The notes under the pieces were generated by a model. It worked only from the letters and a program-made list of their open reading frames with translations, did no database searches and was not told the DNA's origin. Below, in pieces: positions 123 through 43,889 of a stretch of DNA of 64,000 nucleotides (the stretch's first letter is position 1; each line of letters starts with the position of its first letter). The translations under genes were made by a program, and so were the position numbers. The DNA comes from Notolepis coatsorum (lineage: Eukaryota; Chordata; Actinopteri; Aulopiformes; Paralepididae), in NCBI GenBank assembly GCA_963971535.1, contig OZ020585.1, positions 25,070,985 through 25,134,984 on the forward strand, in the 5' to 3' direction.

Positions 123-197
123 ATGGGCGCGGCCATTTTGTTGCTGACGTCATACCGTGGCTTGGGTGTATACACTCTGGTTAGCTGCCTATATTGA

Positions 198-524
198 ATG
201 GGTCGGTCAGCAAATAAAATGTTGCCTACAAAACAACGGGACCGCGGTGGTTCTGTTTGTATTGCTCCTGGCTGTTCAAACTAATTTTACCATGTGAGAG
301 AGAGGAAAGTTGGTTAATTTTCACAAACTACCAGTGAAAAAAACAGTGTTGTTGACATGTTGGCTCGGGCTGCCTGCACCCAGACGGCGCGACCAGCCTG
401 TTGTACAGGGAAGGAGGATCTGCAGCGAACACTTCATTGCCTCGGATTATGTTGTTGGGGTGGGATGTTTGTCCAGAAGACCACTAATCAGCTGAAGCCG
501 GACGCGGTTCCCTCGGTCTTCGAC
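198..524 (+). pseudogene. Decayed THAP zinc-finger domain, left arm
   Basis: From ATG 198 the frame gives a basic N-terminus and then CIAPGCSN, the usual first half of the THAP C2CH finger, before a stop at 282. In another frame from about 310 it resumes with NFHKLPV and then RICSEHF at about 418-438, the second zinc pair C-x2-H. A further frame gives LKPDAVPSVF at about 492-521, the typical THAP C-terminal AVPxxF box. All THAP landmarks occur in order over roughly 90 codons, but spread over three frames, so no intact domain is encoded. Known THAP domains bind DNA in P-element transposases and in cellular THAP proteins. No catalytic region follows. Confidence 0.75.
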
Positions 525-610
525 AGACAGACCGGCGTTAGCTCTCGGGAGCTAGTTGGCACCAGCCGGGGCCAGGCGTTAGCTCTCGCTAGCTAGCGTT
601 AGCAACCGGA

Positions 611-706
611 GCGTCGCGGAGCATTCAGCCTGCTGGCTACCTAGACCCACTTCAACCAGCGTCGCGGAGCATTCAGCCTGCTGGCTACCTAGACCCACTT
701 CAACCA
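611..706. repeat. 48-bp direct repeat, two copies, at the palindrome centre
   Basis: Two tandem 48-bp copies start at 611 and 659 (GCGTCGCGGAGCATTCAGCC...). The opposite arm matches either copy, so the hairpin could pair in two registers. Confidence 0.85.
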
Positions 707-825
707 GCGTCGCCAGCGTCGCCAAGCTGTGTAGCCAGCAGGCTGAATGCTCCGCGACGCTCCGGTTGCTAACGCTAGCTAGCGAGAGCTAACGCCGGGC
801 CCCGAGAGCTAACGCCGGTCTGTCT

Positions 826-1152
826 GTCGAAGACCGAGGGAACCGCGTCCGGCTTCAGCTGATTAGTGGTCTTCTGGACAAACATCCCACCCCAACAACA
901 TAATCCGAGGCAATGAAGTGTTCGCTGCAGATCCTCCTTCCCTGTACAACAGGCTGGTCGCGCCGTCTGGGTGCAGGCAGCCCGAGCCAACATGTCAACA
1001 ACACTGTTTTTTTCACTGGTAGTTTGTGAAAATTAACCAACTTTCCTCTCTCTCACATGGTAAAATTAGTTTGAACAGCCAGGAGCAATACAAACAGAAC
1101 CACCGCGGTCCCGTTGTTTTGTAGGCAACATTTTATTTGCTGACCGACCCAT
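826..1152 (-). pseudogene. Decayed THAP zinc-finger domain, right arm
   Basis: This is the mirror copy of the left-arm THAP fragment, with the same stop after the CIAPGC segment and the same frame changes before HKLP and before AVPSVF. Shared lesions mean the inverted duplication formed after the frame was already broken, or that the arms have been homogenised since. Confidence 0.75.
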
Positions 1153-1351
1153 TCAATATAGGCAGCTAACCAGAGTGTATACACCCAAGCCACGGTATGA
1201 CGTCAGCAACAAAATGGCGGCGCCCATGTTGAAAACAGGGATATTATATTATATTTTTCAGACAAATAAGATAGATTTCACATTTGATTATAGAACCCTG
1301 TCTTACACAAGGTACACAACAAACAAACTAGGATCACATTGCTCACTGCTT

Positions 1352-1503
1352 CATCTCCACTTTAAGATACTTAAGTACATTCAATAGCAAGTACTTCTCT
1401 ACTTTTAAGTCAAATTTGAATCGAGGACTTTTTTGAAAAGAGTAGGCTACTCATTTATCTGGGTATTTCTAAGTAAAGGAACTGAGTACTTATTCCACCA
1501 CTG
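1352..1503 (-). mobile_element. Terminal fragment of a teleost hAT-type nonautonomous element
   Basis: The segment is dense in ACTT/AAGTA words and ends in AAGTAAAGGAACTGAGTACTTATTCCACCACTG (in pieces: CTGAGTACTT, then TTCCACCACTG at 1493-1503). This matches a very common fish hAT MITE that begins CAGTGGTGGAA. Only one terminus is present. Family assignment is from memory of the consensus. Confidence 0.65.
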
Positions 1504-2365
1504 TCAAAATTCCATGAAACATATGATGGCTCTACATCTACATGCCTCTCTCTTCCTCAATGCGAGACTGCGTTTCCCTGGGTGATCTAGTAATAACTTT
1601 TCAATAATATGTTTGCGGGGGTTTGAACAAAATGCATCTACCAGACACAAGGCTTTCTTCTGCCTAACTATTAAAGCCTCCTGCCTCAATGTGAGTCAGT
1701 GAGGATAGCCGACTACACTGGTGTCTCAGCCCCACCGCCTGCTACTACAGAGACCAGGTCCATGGAATCTAGCCAATAACTTTCCAATAATGTGTACTAA
1801 ATGAAATGTAGTGGAAATATAGAGGCAATCAACATATCCAGCTAAAAATGACTACACCGGGTTCTACGCCTCATTTTGATGTATACGTTGTTGTAGAGGT
1901 TTGAAAGAAATGCACCCATGCACACAGACACCAGGGTTTTGTCTGCATGTGAATACAGCACAGCAGGGAGGGGCATAGCATGATGAGTATGACTGGAGCT
2001 GCCTAGGCGGAGCGTGCTGCGTCAATGGAGCGCATAACATAAAAATGTATGATGATGATGATAACGAACAATATTCAATTGTAAAGAAAAGATGAGATGT
2101 CCATCTCATTATCCGTGCTTTCCTGAATTCATATTAGAATTTGGGTTCATCCCTAGTTATTACACTCTAAATGCAAAGGGCTACCTAGCACCATTAAGGG
2201 TCCTGCCGTTTATCCCTTATGGGGAAACGTTTAAGGGGAAGCCTATTCCTGTGCCTCAGCATAGCTCAGTCACTTTTTGTGAACAGGTATCACTCTTTGC
2301 TAAAGCTAGGGAGTTCTTGAACATTGAGGTTTAAATTCTCTCTCAGGCCTGCTAGCGGTACTATA
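1504..2365. repeat. Unassigned sequence with internal diverged repeats
   Basis: No gene is recognised. The string around 1584-1612 (GATCTAGTAATAACTTTTCA...) recurs diverged at 1765-1795. The following GTTTGAACAAAATGCA block near 1630 recurs near 1898 as GTTTGAAAGAAATGCA. This suggests an old internally repeated element. An 80-codon open frame at 2092-2334 has no recognised domain. Confidence 0.4.
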
Positions 2366-3138
2366 GTCAAATTTCAGATTCATGAGGAACTGTTTAACAT
2401 CCACTGCTGCCATTCTCTATATGAACACAATGATAATTTCCCATCTCATGTACTGTATGACTAGCTGGACCCATGCAAAAAACACAACCATGACACCCAT
2501 TCTCTCTCTGTATAAACAGGCCCTCAAGGTGCTCGACCGAAAACCATATACTTACCACCACTGTCACATCCTCAGCAAGTACAGAATCCTCAGCTGGGAA
2601 AACCTCACAAAATACACTGATGCCTGCCTTCTATTCAAGATCTTAAATGGCAAGGCCCCCCACCCCTCAGTACTTTTATCAAACAAAAAACATCTTATAA
2701 TAGGTCCACAAGATCTACCCAGAGAGGGGACTGTACTGTGCCGTTTAGGTCCAGCTCCTTCAGTCACTCCTGTTTTGTAGTCAGAGCCACTCAGTTCCGG
2801 AACACCCTACCAACTGAAATAAGACACTGTGCTATCTACCACACCTTTACACAAAAACTCAATACCTGGTTAACCAATCAAACATGTAATCACTTTTAAT
2901 CATTTCATTGTGTATTTTATTATTGCTTTTATTATTATGTTGGATTATGTTGTAAATACTGTGTTGTACTTTTAATGTTTCTGTTCTAGGTGTATTGTCG
3001 GTCTCATAACATCTTGCCAAAAGGACTACAGTTGCGAATTAGCCAGCTGGTTAAAACTGACACATTTACAGAAATGTTTATCAATGTGTACTGTCCTTTT
3101 TTTTATTATTATTATTAACTGAAACTGAAACTGAATAT
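2366..3138 (+). mobile_element. LINE 3' end: reverse-transcriptase C-terminus plus tail
   Basis: The frame from about 2366 reads through the C-terminal part of a fish L2/Rex-like ORF2. Landmarks are YMNTMIISHLMYC, LYKQALKVLDRKP, YHHCHIL, LSWENL and LLFKILNGKAPHP. A stop at 2778 interrupts it, and the same frame then continues with RATQFRNTLPTEI to the ending CNHF near 2900. The noncoding tail ends in tandem CTGAAA units near 3120-3138, like the short 3' repeats of L2/CR1-type LINEs. The element is 5' truncated and lacks the catalytic RT core. The family name is uncertain. Confidence 0.8.
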
Positions 3139-3159
3139 TCAATGCCACTCTGACAGGGA

Positions 3160-3240
3160 TGGATGCGAGGGCTGTTCCAGTGATCGAACCTGTCACCTCC
3201 CGGTTACAGGCCGGGCTCTCTAACTGTCAGGCCATCCCGA
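3160..3240 (-). mobile_element. tRNA-like SINE head
   Basis: On the minus strand an A-box-like TGGCCTGACAGTTAGAGA (near 3217-3234) is followed by a perfect B box GGTTCGATCAC (about 3180-3190). The acceptor ends do not pair, so this is a SINE head rather than a tRNA gene. No clear body or tail is attached. Confidence 0.6.
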
Positions 3241-3804
3241 CATCCCATTACGTCATTGATTACATTGTCATGAGACTAATTGTGGCACTTTTTGTTTGTT
3301 CCACAGTGGCTATTAGTACTGAAAGTGTTTTTATGGGAATATTGGCATCTTTTATATTCATTGTCGTGTTAGCACTACAATGAAATTAAGCTCATTTGGA
3401 TGTGAATGTTCCAGCACTGTATGACTCCACAAAGGAGGAATCTCAGAAATTGAATTTATAGAAAGAGCCGTTCTAAAGGCTGAAATGACAACAAACAAAA
3501 TTATTTAGTTTAATTAAAAAAAAATTTAATTTATTTATTTGTTTGTTATGTTGCATATTTGAAATAAACTTAAATCAAATCAAAGGCTGATTTATGCTAG
3601 GGCCCTCAACACTATTGACAACTGACAAGAAAATGAAGAAGATTCAGTCAAACAGTTGCTAATGCAGGGGGGCTTGTAATCATCAATTAAATTGTCCATA
3701 AGTTAGTGCCAAACAAATTTGAATGTGTGTTGAAGATCATTCCAAGAAGCTGGGGCATTACACCAAAATGCTTACTTTACATGTTCAGCCCATGCTCGGG
3801 GGAC
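3241..3804. other. AT-rich stretch without a gene
   Basis: There is an A/T-rich run near 3500-3580 and no supported gene. A GAAATAAACTTAAATCAAATCAAA segment near 3559 resembles a LINE or SINE tail but cannot be assigned. Confidence 0.4.
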
Positions 3805-4043: not shown

Positions 4044-4974
4044 GTACATGATCTTGATTGATTGATTGATTGAAAAGTTTATTAACAGATTGCAGAATGG
4101 GTACAGTACAGTACATCTCAATACATACAATTGTTAAGGGGATGCAGACCAGAGAAAGACTTTCGTCTTGTTTACACCAGGGTCCCCCATTTTCAATTCA
4201 TCATAACATATATGACATACATGACATACAGATAGACAGTACTGCTACATCTATACATTTATGACATATCAGATTTGCAAATACAGTACTGTTTGTGATA
4301 CAAAAGTGTCCAGAAAAGGAGTGTATATACATTTGGCGTAGAAACTGTACATTGGAGGAGGTTGGTGGGGTGGGGTTGGGTGGGTTGGGTGAGGGCTGTA
4401 CATTGGAGGTGGGGGGGGGGGGGGGGGGGGGGGGGGGTTGGGTAGGGGACACACACACATTTTACACTGTACATTGGAATATTGACAAAGCCTTACTTGG
4501 TCATTTACTGTACAACTAGGTTAGGACATTTGTAGGGGCCAGTTTCGAATTGCAGTCTCACGTAGGTGTTTTTTGAGAGTGTTTTTGAAGGTGGGTAGTG
4601 ATTCACATTCCTTTACAGCTTTAGGCAGGGCGTTCCACATTGATGTGGCATAATTGCGAAACGTGTTTAGTCCCTTGTTTGAGCCGAATCTGGGTTTTAC
4701 ATGATTTGTGGAGCTCCCTCTGGTGTTGTGATCGTGGTATTCACTGACCTTTGGGAAGTATTTTGACATGTACATGGGTACCTTGGTCGCGTAGTGTATC
4801 TTGTAGACCAGGCCCATTGCAAGTTGCTGTACTCTGTCGTCTACTCTAAGCCATCCTAGGTTGTCAAAGTGGGCAGGGGTGAGGTGGGTTCTAGGAGTCA
4901 GGTCAAGTAGTAGTCTGACTAGCTTGTTTTGAGATGTTTGTAATTTGTTTTTTAGTGCCTTTGAGGTGCTACAC
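4044..4974 (-). mobile_element. LINE 3' end, family 1, with RT C-terminal frame
   Basis: On the minus strand a continuous frame from about 4974 to 4521 contains NKLVRLLLDL, HFDNLGWL, GLVYKIHYATKVP, YHDHNTRGSS, FGSNKGLNTF, MWNALPKAVKE and LPTFKNTLKKHL. This is the conserved C-terminal tail of Jockey/CR1-superfamily LINE ORF2 proteins. The 3' untranslated part runs left, includes a 27-base G run (4411-4437) and ends in GATTGATTGATTGA units at 4054-4072. Related 3' ends lie at about 21315-21400, 35165-35412 and 62680-63010. The element is 5' truncated. Confidence 0.8.
4411..4437. repeat. 27-base G run
   Basis: A homopolymer of G inside the LINE 3' end, flanked by repeated CTGTACATTGGA motifs (4344, 4396 and 4468). 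Confidence 0.9.
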
Positions 4975-5299: not shown

Positions 5300-5369
5300 A
5301 AAAAAAAAAAAAAAAAAAATATATACTTTTTTTTTTTTTTTTTTTTTTACTTTTTTACTTTTTTTTTTT
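5300..5369. repeat. Facing A and T homopolymers
   Basis: An A run (about 5300-5319) is followed by T runs (about 5329-5348 and 5360-5368), giving a short A/T inverted repeat just inside the hAT left end. Confidence 0.85.
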
Positions 5370-6098
5370 GGGCCAGTGTGTGGGCCAGTGTGTGGGCCAC
5401 TAATGTGGGCCGATGTGTGGGCCAGTGTGTGGGCCAGTGTGTGGGCCAGTGTGTGAGTCGGTGTGTGGGCCACTAATGTGGGCCAGTGTGTGGGCCGGTG
5501 TGTGGGCCAGTGTGTGAGTCGGTGTGTGGGCCACTAATGTGGGCCAGTGTGTGGGCCAGTGTGTGGGCCACTAATGTGGGCCGATGTGTGGGCCAGTGTG
5601 TGGGCCAGTGTGTGGGCCAGTGTGTGAGTCGGTGTGTGGGCCACTAATGTGGGCCAGTGTGTGGGCCAGTGTGTGGGCCGGTGTGTGGGCCAGTATGTGG
5701 GCCAGTGTGTGGGCCGGTGTGTGGGCCAGTATGTGGGCCAGTCTGTGGGCCGGTGTGTGGGCCAGTGTGTGAGTCGGTATGTGGGCCACTAATGTGGGCC
5801 AGTGTGTGGGCCGGTGTGTGGGCCAGTATGTGGGCCGGTGTGTGGGCCAGTGTGTGAGTCGGTATGTGGGCCACTAATGTGGGCCAGTGTGTGGGCCGGT
5901 GTGTGGGCCAGTATGTGGGCCGGTGTGTGGGCCGGTGTGTGGGCCAGTATGTGGGCCAGTGTGTGGGCCGGTGTGTGGGCCAGTGTGTGGGCCAGTGTGT
6001 GGGCCACTAATGTGAGCCGGTGTAGTGTGTGGGCCAGTGTGTGGGCCATATGTGGGCCGGTGTGTGGGCCATTATGTGGGCCGGTGTGTGGGCCGGCA
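5370..6098. repeat. 12-bp minisatellite (GTGTGTGGGCCA)n inside the hAT left end
   Basis: About 60 units of GTGTGTGGGCC(A/G) with variants GAGTCGGT and CACTAATGTGGGCC recurring in a higher-order pattern. Open frames on both strands (His/Thr/Ala-rich or Cys/Gly/Pro/Val-rich) follow from a period divisible by three and are not genes. The same unit occurs a few times at 9929-9990 near the right end, so the array probably grew from the element's own subterminal sequence. Confidence 0.9.
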
Positions 6099-9813: not shown

Positions 9814-10076
9814 CACTGTGCATGAGTGCACATCTAGGGGCGGTGTGTAGATTTGGTCTCCCTGATGTTGACTCCTTAGCCACAGCCTTGGGTTGTTTAA
9901 TACTGGACAAGTGTTTCATAACGCCCGTTGTGTGGGCCGGTTTCGGGGGCGGTGCGTGGGCCGGTGCGTGGGCCGGTGTGTGGGCTGGCGCGTCTGAATG
10001 TCCCGGGCTGAATTTGTGTCCCAGTCCGCCACTGCCCCCAGGTTACATGTATATGGCTATGTGATCTGATCGATTC

Positions 10077-10540: not shown

Positions 10541-12019
10541 TATAAACTCATATTTCACTAATAACAATAAAAATTATTGGTAAACAAACGTAGTGCTGAA
10601 AATATACACTTTGACTGCTGTTTTGACAGGGTTAGGGTCTTTACGCTTGGCTACATTTGAGGGGGAAAAAACGCAACATTACAGTAATTCATACATTCTA
10701 TAGAGATGGATTTATGGCGTGATATCAATCTCGTACCGGTCCCGGACCACTCAGGCTTAAGAGGTTAAAGCTGCTGGTGCCTCTGGGAGTCTATGGACAA
10801 CCGTTGGGCTTGAAACGTTCTATGTATTTCAGCTGGGCAGGTGAAGTCACTCTTGCTGATTTCTCTGAAGTTGCCTACTACAGCTCTAATACTAGGTGAC
10901 CTGAAAGAAAAGACTTGAGTGTGTTGTTTATCCAAGATGTCAGGATCTAACACCAGACCACCTTTGTGTAAAGCAATCACATAGGCCAAACTCTAGGAAA
11001 ACTGCTAGAAACTGCTACAAAGTAAAAATAAAAAGAAATAATGCGTTAATTGCTCTGTGAAAAGATAATTCAATGTATCCTCTCCTTCATGATGCAGTTT
11101 GGCATGATGGTTTCTGACATCTCTATGGTAACAAAACATGCCATGCTCCCAACTCATTGTGTTTATTTGCTCTGCCAATCGTTCCCCTGTCGCCTCCATG
11201 CAGGCGTGTCATGCAAGCCAACACTCTGGGCGGCACAATCAGGCGTGCTGCTACCATATGCACACGTCGGGCACAGCTTTTGGGTGTGCTTTCCTGAGCT
11301 GTCTGGCACTTTACCTCTTAGTCAGCATAGCCGGCCTTAGGGTCCAGGGATTCAACATCGAATAACAGCCAATTACGAGGTTCATGCAATGTATTCTACC
11401 TCGCCCAGAATCACAGGAAGCCAATGAAAATATTATGTTTTTTGTCGAAGTTGTGCATCAAGCAGAAAGCTGGCCACTGTGTCAAACTTGCCACGACACA
11501 GTTAAATTAGATCATGGAGATTCCCATGACTTGGTTTATGTCAGGAACAAGGTTTCTTCTACAAGGTGAAATACTTTGTCAGTGAACATATTTCTGTGTT
11601 GTAGGGCGAAGGCCATTTTTTAGGGTTCAGAAGTTCATTGCTGTTTACGAACGAGGCTCCAAACGTTCAGAAATCAGGATTACCGTAGGCAGCAATGCCA
11701 AAGTTCTGTCATAATGCAATGGCAGCTCCGCTCACTGCTTCTGTGTTAAATTCACCGTTTAACTCTGAAATGTATGATATAAAGCTATTGAATCATTTTA
11801 CAAGTACCCTGTTGATGGGAGACAGGCGACGTCTCTAACCTCTTAACTTATTTCTCTCTCCCTTACTCTCCTTTGCAACTTTGCATACATTCCTTTGCAT
11901 CAATTCATATACAGACTATATCCACAACGCAAATTGATTTAGAGAACATAAATTATAGAGCCACAGATAAAAGGAACCTGCCAAGATGGTAATAGCTGTA
12001 TTTTCAAACACAATGCATC
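10541..12019. other. About 1.5 kb without recognised gene or repeat
   Basis: Mixed-composition sequence. Short frames at 10765-10989, 11050-11365 and 11384-11569 show no domain or repeat. It could be unique intergenic or intronic DNA. Confidence 0.4.
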
Positions 12020-12630
12020 GGAAGCAGCATCAGTACAGATGACACTGTGATGACCTCACATAGCAGTGTCTGCTCCATAGGAAGCAGCATCAGTACAGAT
12101 GACACTGTGATGACCTCACATAGCAGTGTCTGCTCCATAGGAAGCAGCATCAGTACAGATGACACTGTGATGACCTCACATAGCAGTGTCTGCTCCATAG
12201 GAAGCAGTGTGAGTACAGATGAGACTGTGCTGACATCACATAGCAGGGTCTGCTCCATAGGAAGCAGCATCAGTACAGATGACACTGTGATGACCTCACA
12301 TAGCAGTGTCTGCTCCATAGGAAGCCGCACAGTTCAGATGACACTGTGATGACATCACATAGCAGTGTCTGCTCCATAGGAAGCAGTGTGAGTACAGATG
12401 AGACTGTGCTGACATCACATAGCAGTGTCTGCTCCATAGGAAGCAGTGGGAGTACAGATGAGACTGTGCTGACATCACATAGCAGTGTCTGCTCCATAGG
12501 AAGCAGTGGGAGTACAGATGAGACTGTGCTGACATCACATAGCAGGGTCTGCTCCATAGGAAGCAGTCGTACAGATGAGACTGTGCTGACATCACATAGC
12601 AGGGTCTGCTCCATAGGAATCAGCAGAACA
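12020..12630. repeat. 60-bp minisatellite, ten units, open on both strands
   Basis: Units start at 12020, 12080, 12140, 12200, 12260, 12320, 12379, 12439, 12499 and 12559, with a partial at 12616. The core is GGAAGCAGCATCAGTACAGA, then TGACCTCACATAGCAGTGTC. Sixty is divisible by three, so plus-strand (SHSSVCSIGSS) and minus-strand (LLPMEQTLLCEV) frames stay open. One unit of 59 and one of 57 bases shift or shorten the frame. Two variants (CATCAGTACAGATGACAC against GTGAGTACAGATGAGAC) alternate. Confidence 0.95.
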
Positions 12631-23318: not shown

Positions 23319-24704
23319 TACACCTTTTTAAAAACACAAGCTAAAACGCACCACACAACATGAACAGAAAACACAACAAAGCATTAAAGGAGTCCAGCAA
23401 ACCTAGACTCAAATGCCATAGACTAGAGAGTCCAGGATCTGGAGTTGCTGCGTTCAGCCACCAGAGGGCGGCAGAAAACCACTGTTCACATTGTTCGAGC
23501 ATGATCCCGGGCTGGGACCATGACAGATAGTGCTGATGTGGCACTTTCTAATTATAATGTTTATAGAATGGATCGTTCAAGTAGGGGGGGTGGGGTTGGA
23601 ATTTATCTTAAATCTCATCTCTCAGCTTCAATTTTAAAATCAGTTTCTCTTCCCAATTGTTTTGAATTTCTCGCACTTAAAGTTTACCATGGTCCGGACC
23701 CAATAACAGTAGTCGGCATTTACCGCCCTCCTTCAGCTGACTCTCATGCACCGACACTTTGGTGAATCTGCTGTCGAAGTTCTGTGAAGATGAACTTCTC
23801 GTTTTAGGTGACCTAAATCTCAACTGGCTAAGTGATGTTTCTCTGCAGCTTAAAAATCAAACCTGCAGCATCAACTTATCACAACTAATTACTGAACCAA
23901 CCAGACCAAACCCCAAAGATTACTCAAAATCCTCCCCTTTAGATCTAATCTTCACCAACAGGACTAGCAAATATACCAGTGGTGTCTTTGCATTGGGAGT
24001 CAGTGACCACTGTCCCATTGCGAGAAATATAAATGTGAAAAAGACTACATCTCAGCTGGTTTCTAAGAGGAACTTTAAGAGGTTTGTTGCAGAGGAGTTC
24101 ATGGGGGATCTGGATGACTGGGATTGGAGTTGCGTCGGCCAATTCGATGAGATAGAGGACGCTCTTAACTCCTTTATATGTGCATCTAATTGCTTTGTAG
24201 ATAAGCATGCCCCATATAAAATGACTAGGATCAACGATAGGGTGGTGCCATGGGTTACTCATGAGCTGTCTACCCTCCTTAATGATACGAATAATGCCTG
24301 GTCCCGTGCCAGACGCACACATGATACCCAGCACTGGCTGTCATTTAGACAGCTCAGAAATAAATGCACTTCAGCTGTAAGGAAAGCTAAAACGGATTAC
24401 TTTTTAAATCTTGTAACCACCTCCTATTCTAATCCTGCCAAGTTCTGGGGTGCAGTTAATTTGACCAAAAATCTGCCTTCTAGCACTCTGCCCCTTAGTA
24501 TTACGATAAATGACTGCGTGATCTCTGATCCGAATGACATTCGCCTTGCTTTTAATAAACACTTTGTCAAATTGCAATTGTTTTTAGTTTCTTCTATTCT
24601 TTTTTTATATTTTCATTGTGTTGCTCATGTGTGTGTAAACTTGTCGTCATTGTAAATGAGGGAAACCTCAATGTCCTTCGAGTTAAAATAAAGGTTACAA
24701 ACAA

Positions 24705-25143: not shown

Positions 25144-25617
25144 TACTTTGACTTAAGCCTTTGCACTCCCTGCGGAGCATAGGCCACTGACGATTTCTTT
25201 CCATGTTGCGCGGTTTTTGGCCTCCCGAACGATGTTGTGCCATCCCAGTCCAGCCTCTTTCATTTCCCCTTCCCAATAACGGCGCCAGGTGTTTCGAGGC
25301 CTGCTGCGTTTTCTCTTTCCAGGTGGGTTCCATCGTAGGGCTTGAAGGGTGATGTTTGTGTCTTCTTTACTCAGGGTATGGCCTATCCACATCCACTTTC
25401 TCTTCTTTATTTCTTCTGGCGGGGGTAGTTGTTTTGTGCGCTCCCACAGGTCCAGATTTGTAATGACATTTGGCCATCTCACTCTTAGAATGCGGCGGAG
25501 GCAGGAATTTATGAAGGACTGTACTTTCTGCTTCAGCCCTACGGTTGTCTTCCAGGTCTCCGAGCCATACAGGAGGACTGATTTAACATTGGAGTTAAAG
25601 ATCCTCAGCTTTGTGTT
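25144..25617 (-). mobile_element. LINE C-terminal fragment, family 7
   Basis: One continuous minus-strand frame reads TKLRIFNSNVKSVLLYGSET, CLRRILRVRWP, NLDLWERTKQ, RKWMWIGHTLSKED, LRWNPPGKRKRSRPRNTWRR and ends GLCSAGSAKA. This is the well-known C-terminal domain of a common animal LINE (LLYGSETW ... IGHTLRK ... GKRKRGRP). It is 5' truncated, with no RT catalytic core. It is unusually well preserved, with no stop over about 155 codons. Confidence 0.85.
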
Positions 25618-25822
25618 GGTTTTTATTTTGATTTTTTTATTTGATCAATGTCAGTTTCTTAGTAGTAGTAGTCCAATAGGAAAATTGTATCTGCTCTTAA
25701 TACAAATTATATCTCTAGCCCTGCTTGTCTTAACTTTTTGAATGGAAAATATGAGGACATTGACTGGAAAATAACCTGGTTGCTTCATAAGGACTTATTT
25801 TTCATTCATAATTGTTACCTGG

Positions 25823-43075: not shown

Positions 43076-43889
43076 TATTATTTTTTTTATATTAATGGAA
43101 ATGTATGGTTGAAACATGCAAACGTTCAAACGCACACACACTAATAAGCATTGGAGGCTTTTAACCAGGGCCAGACTGGGGAAATCATTCAGGCCAGGAC
43201 ATATAGTGCGAAATATAGTCCCAGTCAGGCCACTTTTTAAGCGGGGGTCTGGGGGTCCCCACCAGGATTTTTTTTGTTACAAAGACTTAATTTCCTGCAT
43301 TCTGGTACAGGTATTTTTTTATTTGTACCCTTTAAATGCCAGTGTTTGTGATGGAATCACAAATTATTGTTAAAAAACAGGCTAGCATATGTATGATTAG
43401 CAACAACACTGATTTTGATGGATTTTCTGTTTTTTTTTTAATCTCAGATTGAACGAAATACAATATTTTATTCAACTTCAGCCCTGATCATAACACCACA
43501 TATTCATTTTATAATTCTAACCCTTTAAATGCCAGTATGTGTGATGGCATATATTTGCAATATATCAAATGCAAAGTCGATTTTTCTGTGGGGGATTATT
43601 ACAGGTTTTTGTAAGGGTCCCGCCTCCACCAATCACATGCGGCTCCCTTTGTGTGTGTGTGTGTGTGAGCAAGAGAGGGAGAGAGAGAGATAGTTCTCCA
43701 ACTTGTGTGAGTTGCAGTGATCTCCTGGTTGTTCCCCACCTAGGTTATCTAACTATTGCGCTGCTGCAACTAGAAACACTGGCCTGGCCTGCTTCTAAGT
43801 TCAGTGGCCTGACTGCATAAAAAAGAAATTGAATCATCTGGCGACCCCCCCGCGGCGGCTCGCGACGACCCCCACTTTGGGAACCCCTG
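42909..43889. mobile_element. 981-bp hAT element with perfect 8-bp target duplication
   Basis: It starts CAGGGGTTCCTAAACTTTTC and ends CCCACTTTGGGAACCCCTG, with imperfect inverted termini and CCGCGACCCCC motifs at both ends. ACCTAGAT flanks it at 42901-42908 and 43890-43897. The interior has an (AT)n run and a block from CAGGGCCAGACTGG to CAGTGGCCTGACTG that may be a second, nested element. No transposase. Confidence 0.92.
43002..43070. repeat. (AT)n microsatellite
   Basis: About 34 AT units inside the hAT element. Confidence 0.97.

Follow-up and report, generated by a model that had tools for sequence, protein, structure and literature searches.

A palindrome near the start of the stretch of DNA analysed here (64 kb long; the window) holds two broken copies of a THAP domain, and raises the questions of whether it is a mobile element, to which kind it belongs and how its arms came to be alike. 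Alignment confirmed the foldback palindrome that a sequence-only reading had proposed: arm A (123-640) pairs with arm B (731-1227), with 495 of 497 aligned bases identical, and the ungapped pairing of 427 nt (123-549 versus 801-1227) was the longest ungapped inverted repeat listed in the 64-kb window. The two mismatches lie at 131/1219 and 574/797, so that only one base differs over the outer 423 bases; the alignment gaps are of 21 nt and 90 nt. The 21-nt stretch (546-566), bordered by CGGG direct repeats, occurs in the left arm only in the window copy, and was present or absent depending on copy and side in the copies compared. The 90 nt form the centre (641-730), which contains the greater part of unit two of a 48-bp tandem repeat. 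A transcript of the palindrome, put forward by the sequence-only reading as a possible small-RNA source, was computed to fold almost fully paired (-1085 kcal/mol), and the CpG observed/expected ratio was 0.83 in the arm versus 0.32 in 1228-3000. No further arm copy was found in the 64-kb window, and an Rfam scan of the window at gathering scores gave no match.

The arm matched the THAP domain of Pfam (PF05485) with an E value of 2.5e-8, scored on a hand-joined read-through composite of the remnant's pieces. Both arms hold the same remnant, as had been reported, but its three pieces occupy two frames and not three. The lesions are indeed identical, with the same in-frame stop and frame changes at equal arm positions in both arms.

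The palindrome itself (123-1227) proved too small to be the mobile unit. The best direct repeat at its edge was 3 bp, equalled by 244 of 300 random pairs, and the repeated unit begins 23 bases ahead of the window and ends at position 1361, with the following features:

Just before the window: outer 23 bp of the left end (LE) with the terminal inverted repeat, and beyond them the left TTAA
1-122, forward strand: inner 122 of the 145 bp of LE, adjoining arm A in 30/30 copies; LE is identical to that of a long partner element (below) at 145/145 bases
123-640, forward strand: palindrome arm A on the LE side, a CpG-rich promoter-like start plus THAP exon, from the inverted-repeat alignment
219-536, forward strand: THAP-domain exon remnant, broken by an in-frame stop and two frame changes
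546-566, forward strand: 21 nt that the window copy has in arm A only
610-713, forward strand: 2.2 copies of a 48-bp tandem repeat; read in one frame it gives SVAEHSACWLPRPTST, resembling the 16-aa repeat of an open frame in locus L121
641-730, no strand: unpaired palindrome centre, from the arm alignment
731-1227, reverse strand: palindrome arm B on the RE side, an inverted copy of arm A, from the arm alignment
814-1131, reverse strand: second broken THAP exon, lesions as in the first, mirror of 219-536
1228-1361, forward strand: right end (RE), 134 bp, finishing in the terminal inverted repeat of 22 bp (1340-1361), with 133/134 bases as in the partner
1362-1365, no strand: target-site duplication TTAA, right copy

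Arm A begins with ATGGGCGC beside LE and carries the promoter-like motifs GCCATTTT at 132 and TGACGTCA at 145; the arm start may thus be a promoter.

The host genome (3.42 Gb, the one genome covered; whole-genome counts are lower bounds) was searched with the arm, and 40 of the 737 first-look candidates were scored. Each of the 30 copies fetched has the same 145-bp LE and 134-bp RE outside the palindrome, and both arms were present in 30/30; unlinked single arms, which the sequence-only reading had named as evidence against its view, were not the case. The element is 1,384 bp long, and its 22-bp terminal inverted repeats start with AG and are alike at 21/22 bases in the window copy, the left terminus of which was read from locus L044, the same locus as the window. 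TTAA flanks 28/30 copies on both sides, with outer flanks that vary from copy to copy; the exceptions are L053, in which the right tip is missing, and L069, with CTAA at the left and a shortened RE. The exact RE tip plus TTAA (34 nt) was found at 451 places or more, an inner RE 23-mer had at least 1,045 exact matches and an arm 36-mer at least 423, with none for the reversed-pattern control of each; the RE counts take in long elements as well. Among 100 places listed for exact matching and counted by eye, there were 46 opposite-strand pairs and 8 matches without a listed partner, one of these at the end of the places listed, and a lone match does not mean that the other arm is missing. At the 60 loci L041-L100, both arms were found beside LE and RE in 49, some of the stretches being too short for both. 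Four places, the window's own among them, match window 123-730 at 608/608 bases, which suggests that the window's group spread recently.

Paralogous empty sites, in which the joined flanks of a copy align with uninterrupted sequence, kept one TTAA in 5 of the 8 alignments shown, and belong to copies other than the window's own insertion: L070 versus window 35386-35263 and 4079-4204, L068 versus window 43250-43354, L064 versus L078, and L056 versus L088. The TTAA was changed or gapped in the other three (L045, L048 and L067); joined-flank matches were also listed for L043, L050, L058 and L049, outside the eight alignments. The palindrome is the interior of a 1,384-bp non-autonomous DNA transposon with hundreds of copies in the host genome. 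The mobile foldback with THAP remnants, for which many copies with conserved ends and target duplications had been proposed as the check, is upheld by its dispersed copies, conserved ends, TTAA duplications and empty sites. As in foldback elements, long inverted arms surround a tandem-repeat centre; very long inverted repeats reaching the element ends, another foldback trait, are not present, as 145 and 134 bp separate the arms from the ends and the terminal repeat measures 22 bp. In L091 (4765-6732) the centre has grown into a long array of ~51-bp units; both centre unit lengths, 48 and 51, are divisible by three. Outside the host, a phage search found no relatives, 11 pattern stretches from viral contigs gave none confirmed and a second search of viral contigs none, an 18-mer shared with 40 viral contigs matched over at most 25 nt in the best 15 of 40 loci and revealed no relative, and none of 73 pattern stretches from prokaryote genomes was confirmed as a relative.

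Two THAP searches of the genome gave 6,337 and 4,181 first-look candidates, with 150 scored from each. Seven of 20 short stretches from the second list carried this THAP family uninterrupted, and the same list led, via L126, to a long partner of ~6.2 kb (L127/L128) with TTAA at both ends and with LE (145/145) and RE (133/134) as in the window element. Its order is TTAA, RE, arm start, THAP exon, second exon, short inverted arm start, LE and TTAA. The THAP exon is an ORF at 346-819 (158 aa; PF05485, 4.8e-15), and the second exon an open frame at 1406-3313 (636 aa). The 636-aa frame had 77 genome matches from 69 of 1,136 candidates scored, a lower bound like the other counts; eight of the 77 span residues 1-636 free of stops, of which six reach 100% (rounded), two of those six on small contigs. 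In Pfam it showed a weak match, below the cut-off, to the RNase-H-like RVT_3 (0.032), and comparison with the PDB found no convincing solved relative. The THAP exon and the 636-aa exon would be joined by splicing, and the protein of the long relatives would be a THAP plus DDE-type transposase that moves the short element in trans by binding to the ends they share.

Several other THAP families were seen among the 20 stretches read (L101-L120), with near-identical stretches in L107, L109, L113 and L119, and in L117 and L118; these are perhaps further THAP transposons or gene expansions. The region G000:C44:21526153-21650038 holds four open THAP frames on one strand in ~124 kb, one of which (L114/L122) is of the partner type, and may be either a set of local copies or a gene cluster. 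The window also contains ~60 copies of a 12-bp minisatellite (TGGGCCAGTGTG) at 5369-6096 with like units at 9925-9993, a 60-bp tandem repeat at 12016-12625 (ten copies, 93% matches), and, at 23741-24652 and 25156-25644, sub-threshold endonuclease matches together with a DUF6451 match over its cut-off, probably the remains of a LINE.

Taking the evidence as a whole, the locus is very probably a non-autonomous Kolobok element, mobilised by its partner, whose palindrome arose by inverted copying of the end that carries the THAP exon. The starting state would have been a long element in which a subterminal inverted repeat of ~32 bp lies beside both ends. In a deletion derivative, the RE-side promoter/THAP-exon end would have been copied in inverted orientation onto the LE side, inward from the repeat, by template switching or hairpin repair after excision, or by gene conversion. 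Afterwards the arms would have been kept alike by inter-arm conversion or repeated re-formation, the centre altered by tandem repetition and the derivative amplified; the window's group would have the present partner's ends and have spread recently.

The partner does carry such a repeat: its LE and RE sides match at 31/32 bases, with a weaker block beyond. The sole mismatch falls at base 9, where the LE-side copy has G and the RE-side copy C. The window's two arms differ in the same way (G at 131; C at 1219, read on the strand of the arm), and 30/30 copies of the window's group carry this base-9 mark. Across L041-L100, ATGGGCGCGGCCAT starts 44 of 54 LE-side arms and ATGGGCGCCGCCAT 43 of 55 RE-side arms; other starts occur in 10/54 LE-side arms, some with C at base 9, and in 12/55 RE-side arms, one of them LE-type. 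The partner's RE-side repeat also has a 12-bp duplication, present in 25/30 RE-side and 0/30 LE-side arms of the window's group, although the window's RE-side arm is one of the five that lack it. In L123 the RE side carries the THAP exon, and inverted sequence at the LE side is limited to 40 bp; this locus could instead be a deletion product. The THAP exon is also on the RE side in L124, followed by part of the second exon, and in L122, where LINE-like sequence but no inverted arm was found in the 2.5 kb read. Counting against this origin, an open THAP exon adjoins LE in L125, a stretch without the RE side, and the base-9 mark is not universal outside the window's group.

The arms of the window's group are 75-78% identical to the partner arm, whereas the ends are ~100% identical. 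Thus the arms do not descend directly from the L127/L128 partner, and an exchange of ends or an unseen parent is needed. Median LE/RE identity to the partner was 100/99.3% in the window's group, 92.4/97.0% in L071-L090 (n = 17; ranges 85.5-98.6 and 91.3-100) and 84.3/91.6% in L091-L100 (n = 8), while the better arm matched the partner at 78.1, 76.6 and 76.0%, respectively. An exchange of ends with the active lineage would account for this pattern, to which selection for ends recognised by the transposase may add. In the non-autonomous element, ends that match a seemingly living partner enclose an old interior.

The arms had been thought either young relative to their decay or homogenised. They were compared in three groups that came from separate searches (by arm, THAP protein and open THAP frame) and form a non-random sample. 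Mean divergence between the arms of one copy was 0.4% in the window's group (L041-L070, n = 30), 1.1% in L071-L090 (n = 14) and 3.9% in L091-L100 (n = 5); same-side arms differed by 4.7-4.9% between the first and second groups and by 8.5-9.3% between the first and third. In 45/49 copies, no same-side arm from the other groups came as close as the copy's own two arms were to one another, the remaining 4/49 being exceptions; L095, L096 and L100 have arms 4-7% apart. Arm junctions are common to all groups. Because divergence is 0.4% within copies of the window's group versus 5-9% between these and same-side arms of the other two groups, with the same junctions in all, a single young duplication is rejected; homogenisation stands, beside repeated re-formation. 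An age from arm divergence was set aside, since the arms may be homogenised. Most arms of the window's group cluster by side, so homogenisation would be occasional and not constant, or else palindromes formed repeatedly from the same seed. The family is an example, with divergence measured, of inverted arms that remain similar.

That each palindrome was newly formed per lineage from the 32-bp seed, and not kept by conversion between old arms, is a serious possibility to which we give somewhat less than even weight. Since a seed repeat sets where the junctions fall, palindromes of separate origin would have them in common, and L123 shows an element with just the 40-bp repeat; against this, the climb of within-copy divergence from group to group and the 21-nt variant found on both sides are what occasional conversion would be expected to leave. 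If the proposed order is right, the genome records the stepwise birth of a foldback element, with the forms coexisting in one genome: the 32-bp subterminal repeat, the 40-bp form and derivatives with ~500-bp arms. A wider picture, that of a self-renewing palindromic parasite with conversion-kept arms built from its parent's promoter and THAP exon, ends taken over group after group from the active transposon so that it stays in step with the transposase, and a hairpin or, in some copies, an open THAP frame that could restrain its parent, is unlikely as a whole.

Among 109 sampled arms, including 60 of the window's group, the THAP region showed 102 distinct changes, 32 synonymous and 70 other, versus 28.6 and 73.4 expected; the changes are neutral in this sample. 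Seven intact THAP relatives gave NG86 dN/dS values of 0.38-1.17, a value being obtained for 19/21 pairs; the eight deepest pairs with a value ranged from 0.42 to 0.71, and some other pairs were near 1. This is as expected if selection acts in self-moving lineages. Samples for both codon tests were chosen by similarity to the window arm or PF05485 and lean toward the best-kept copies.

Regulation of the partner by the element, through hairpin RNA or a THAP-only protein that lowers transposase activity, is in our judgement improbable. The inverted THAP exons form a near-perfect predicted hairpin, and L121 (972-3095), a full foldback copy, has an open 332-aa frame in which eleven 16-aa repeats come after THAP, their 48-bp coding units resembling the window's unit, with a convergent 217-aa frame in its opposite arm; domesticated Kolobok proteins have been proposed to suppress transposons through binding-site competition (PMC6004289, in the part available). 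However, only 10 of 498 21-mers of arm A match the partner gene region, and the THAP changes in the sampled arms fit neutrality.

Kolobok hallmarks are a TTAA target duplication, AG/RR ends and THAP (PMC6004289, in the part available). TTAA flanks the copies (28/30) and both partner ends; the termini, RR and usually AG in Kolobok, are AG in copies and partner; and a THAP domain is encoded by the partner's THAP exon, which would belong to the transposase through a putative link to the second exon. We therefore infer a member of the Kolobok superfamily and not of P, because of the TTAA duplication, the AG ends and the THAP domain. The sequence-only reading had called the element P-like, and a P-superfamily foldback resembling Galileo or Izanagi would share the THAP domain; in the available descriptions, the inverted repeats of Galileo are long, and internal sequence has extended some of them (PMC3573991), and Izanagi of medaka is a non-autonomous element with a degenerate THAP domain (PMC2820524). 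The same sources give 7-bp (Galileo) and 8-bp (Izanagi) target duplications and YARNG at P termini. Here the duplication is TTAA instead of 7-8 bp, the ends are AGTGGA-like without YARNG, and the palindrome is internal, beginning 145 and 134 bp inside the element ends. The P-like label is unsupported, and with the TTAA duplications, empty sites and ends we reject the P superfamily as highly improbable.

An ISL2EU (PHIS) element with its termini at the edges of the palindrome (AT|GG...CC|AT) would agree with the edge, which reads AT|GGGCGC, and with the THAP, AT duplication and GG ends of the available published description, but it has next to no chance, as the AT|GG edge is internal and the sequence beyond it is common to 30/30 copies. 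A local inverted duplication or assembly artefact that is not mobile would look alike from the window alone if it were a young single-site palindrome; it is refuted for the family by dispersed copies with differing flanks, TTAA duplications and arms and centre that vary between copies, and its probability is negligible.

A literature search, with most subscription papers and Repbase outside its scope, found no title on a Kolobok foldback. The element is like Kolobok and its MITEs (Xenopus XKol and T2-MITE; PMC6004289) in its TTAA duplication, AG termini, THAP transposase and short non-autonomous relatives, but the available part of that description has no palindrome of an inverted coding exon; the THAP and the second long frame are, unlike there, separate open frames here, probably two exons. 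As far as its available account goes, Izanagi (PMC2820524) is likewise a non-autonomous DNA transposon of a teleost and carries a degenerate THAP domain, but it has 8-bp duplications, a 27-bp TIR starting with CAATG and THAP in three putative exons, and is described without a palindrome. Galileo copies of Drosophila with two extended or recombinant TIRs (PMC3573991, in the part available) have likewise lengthened their inverted repeats by taking in non-TIR sequence in inverted orientation, and share tandem repeats in some TIRs and a THAP transposase; they differ in their 7-bp duplications. The arms of the window element lie 134-145 bp inside its ends and contain a coding exon.
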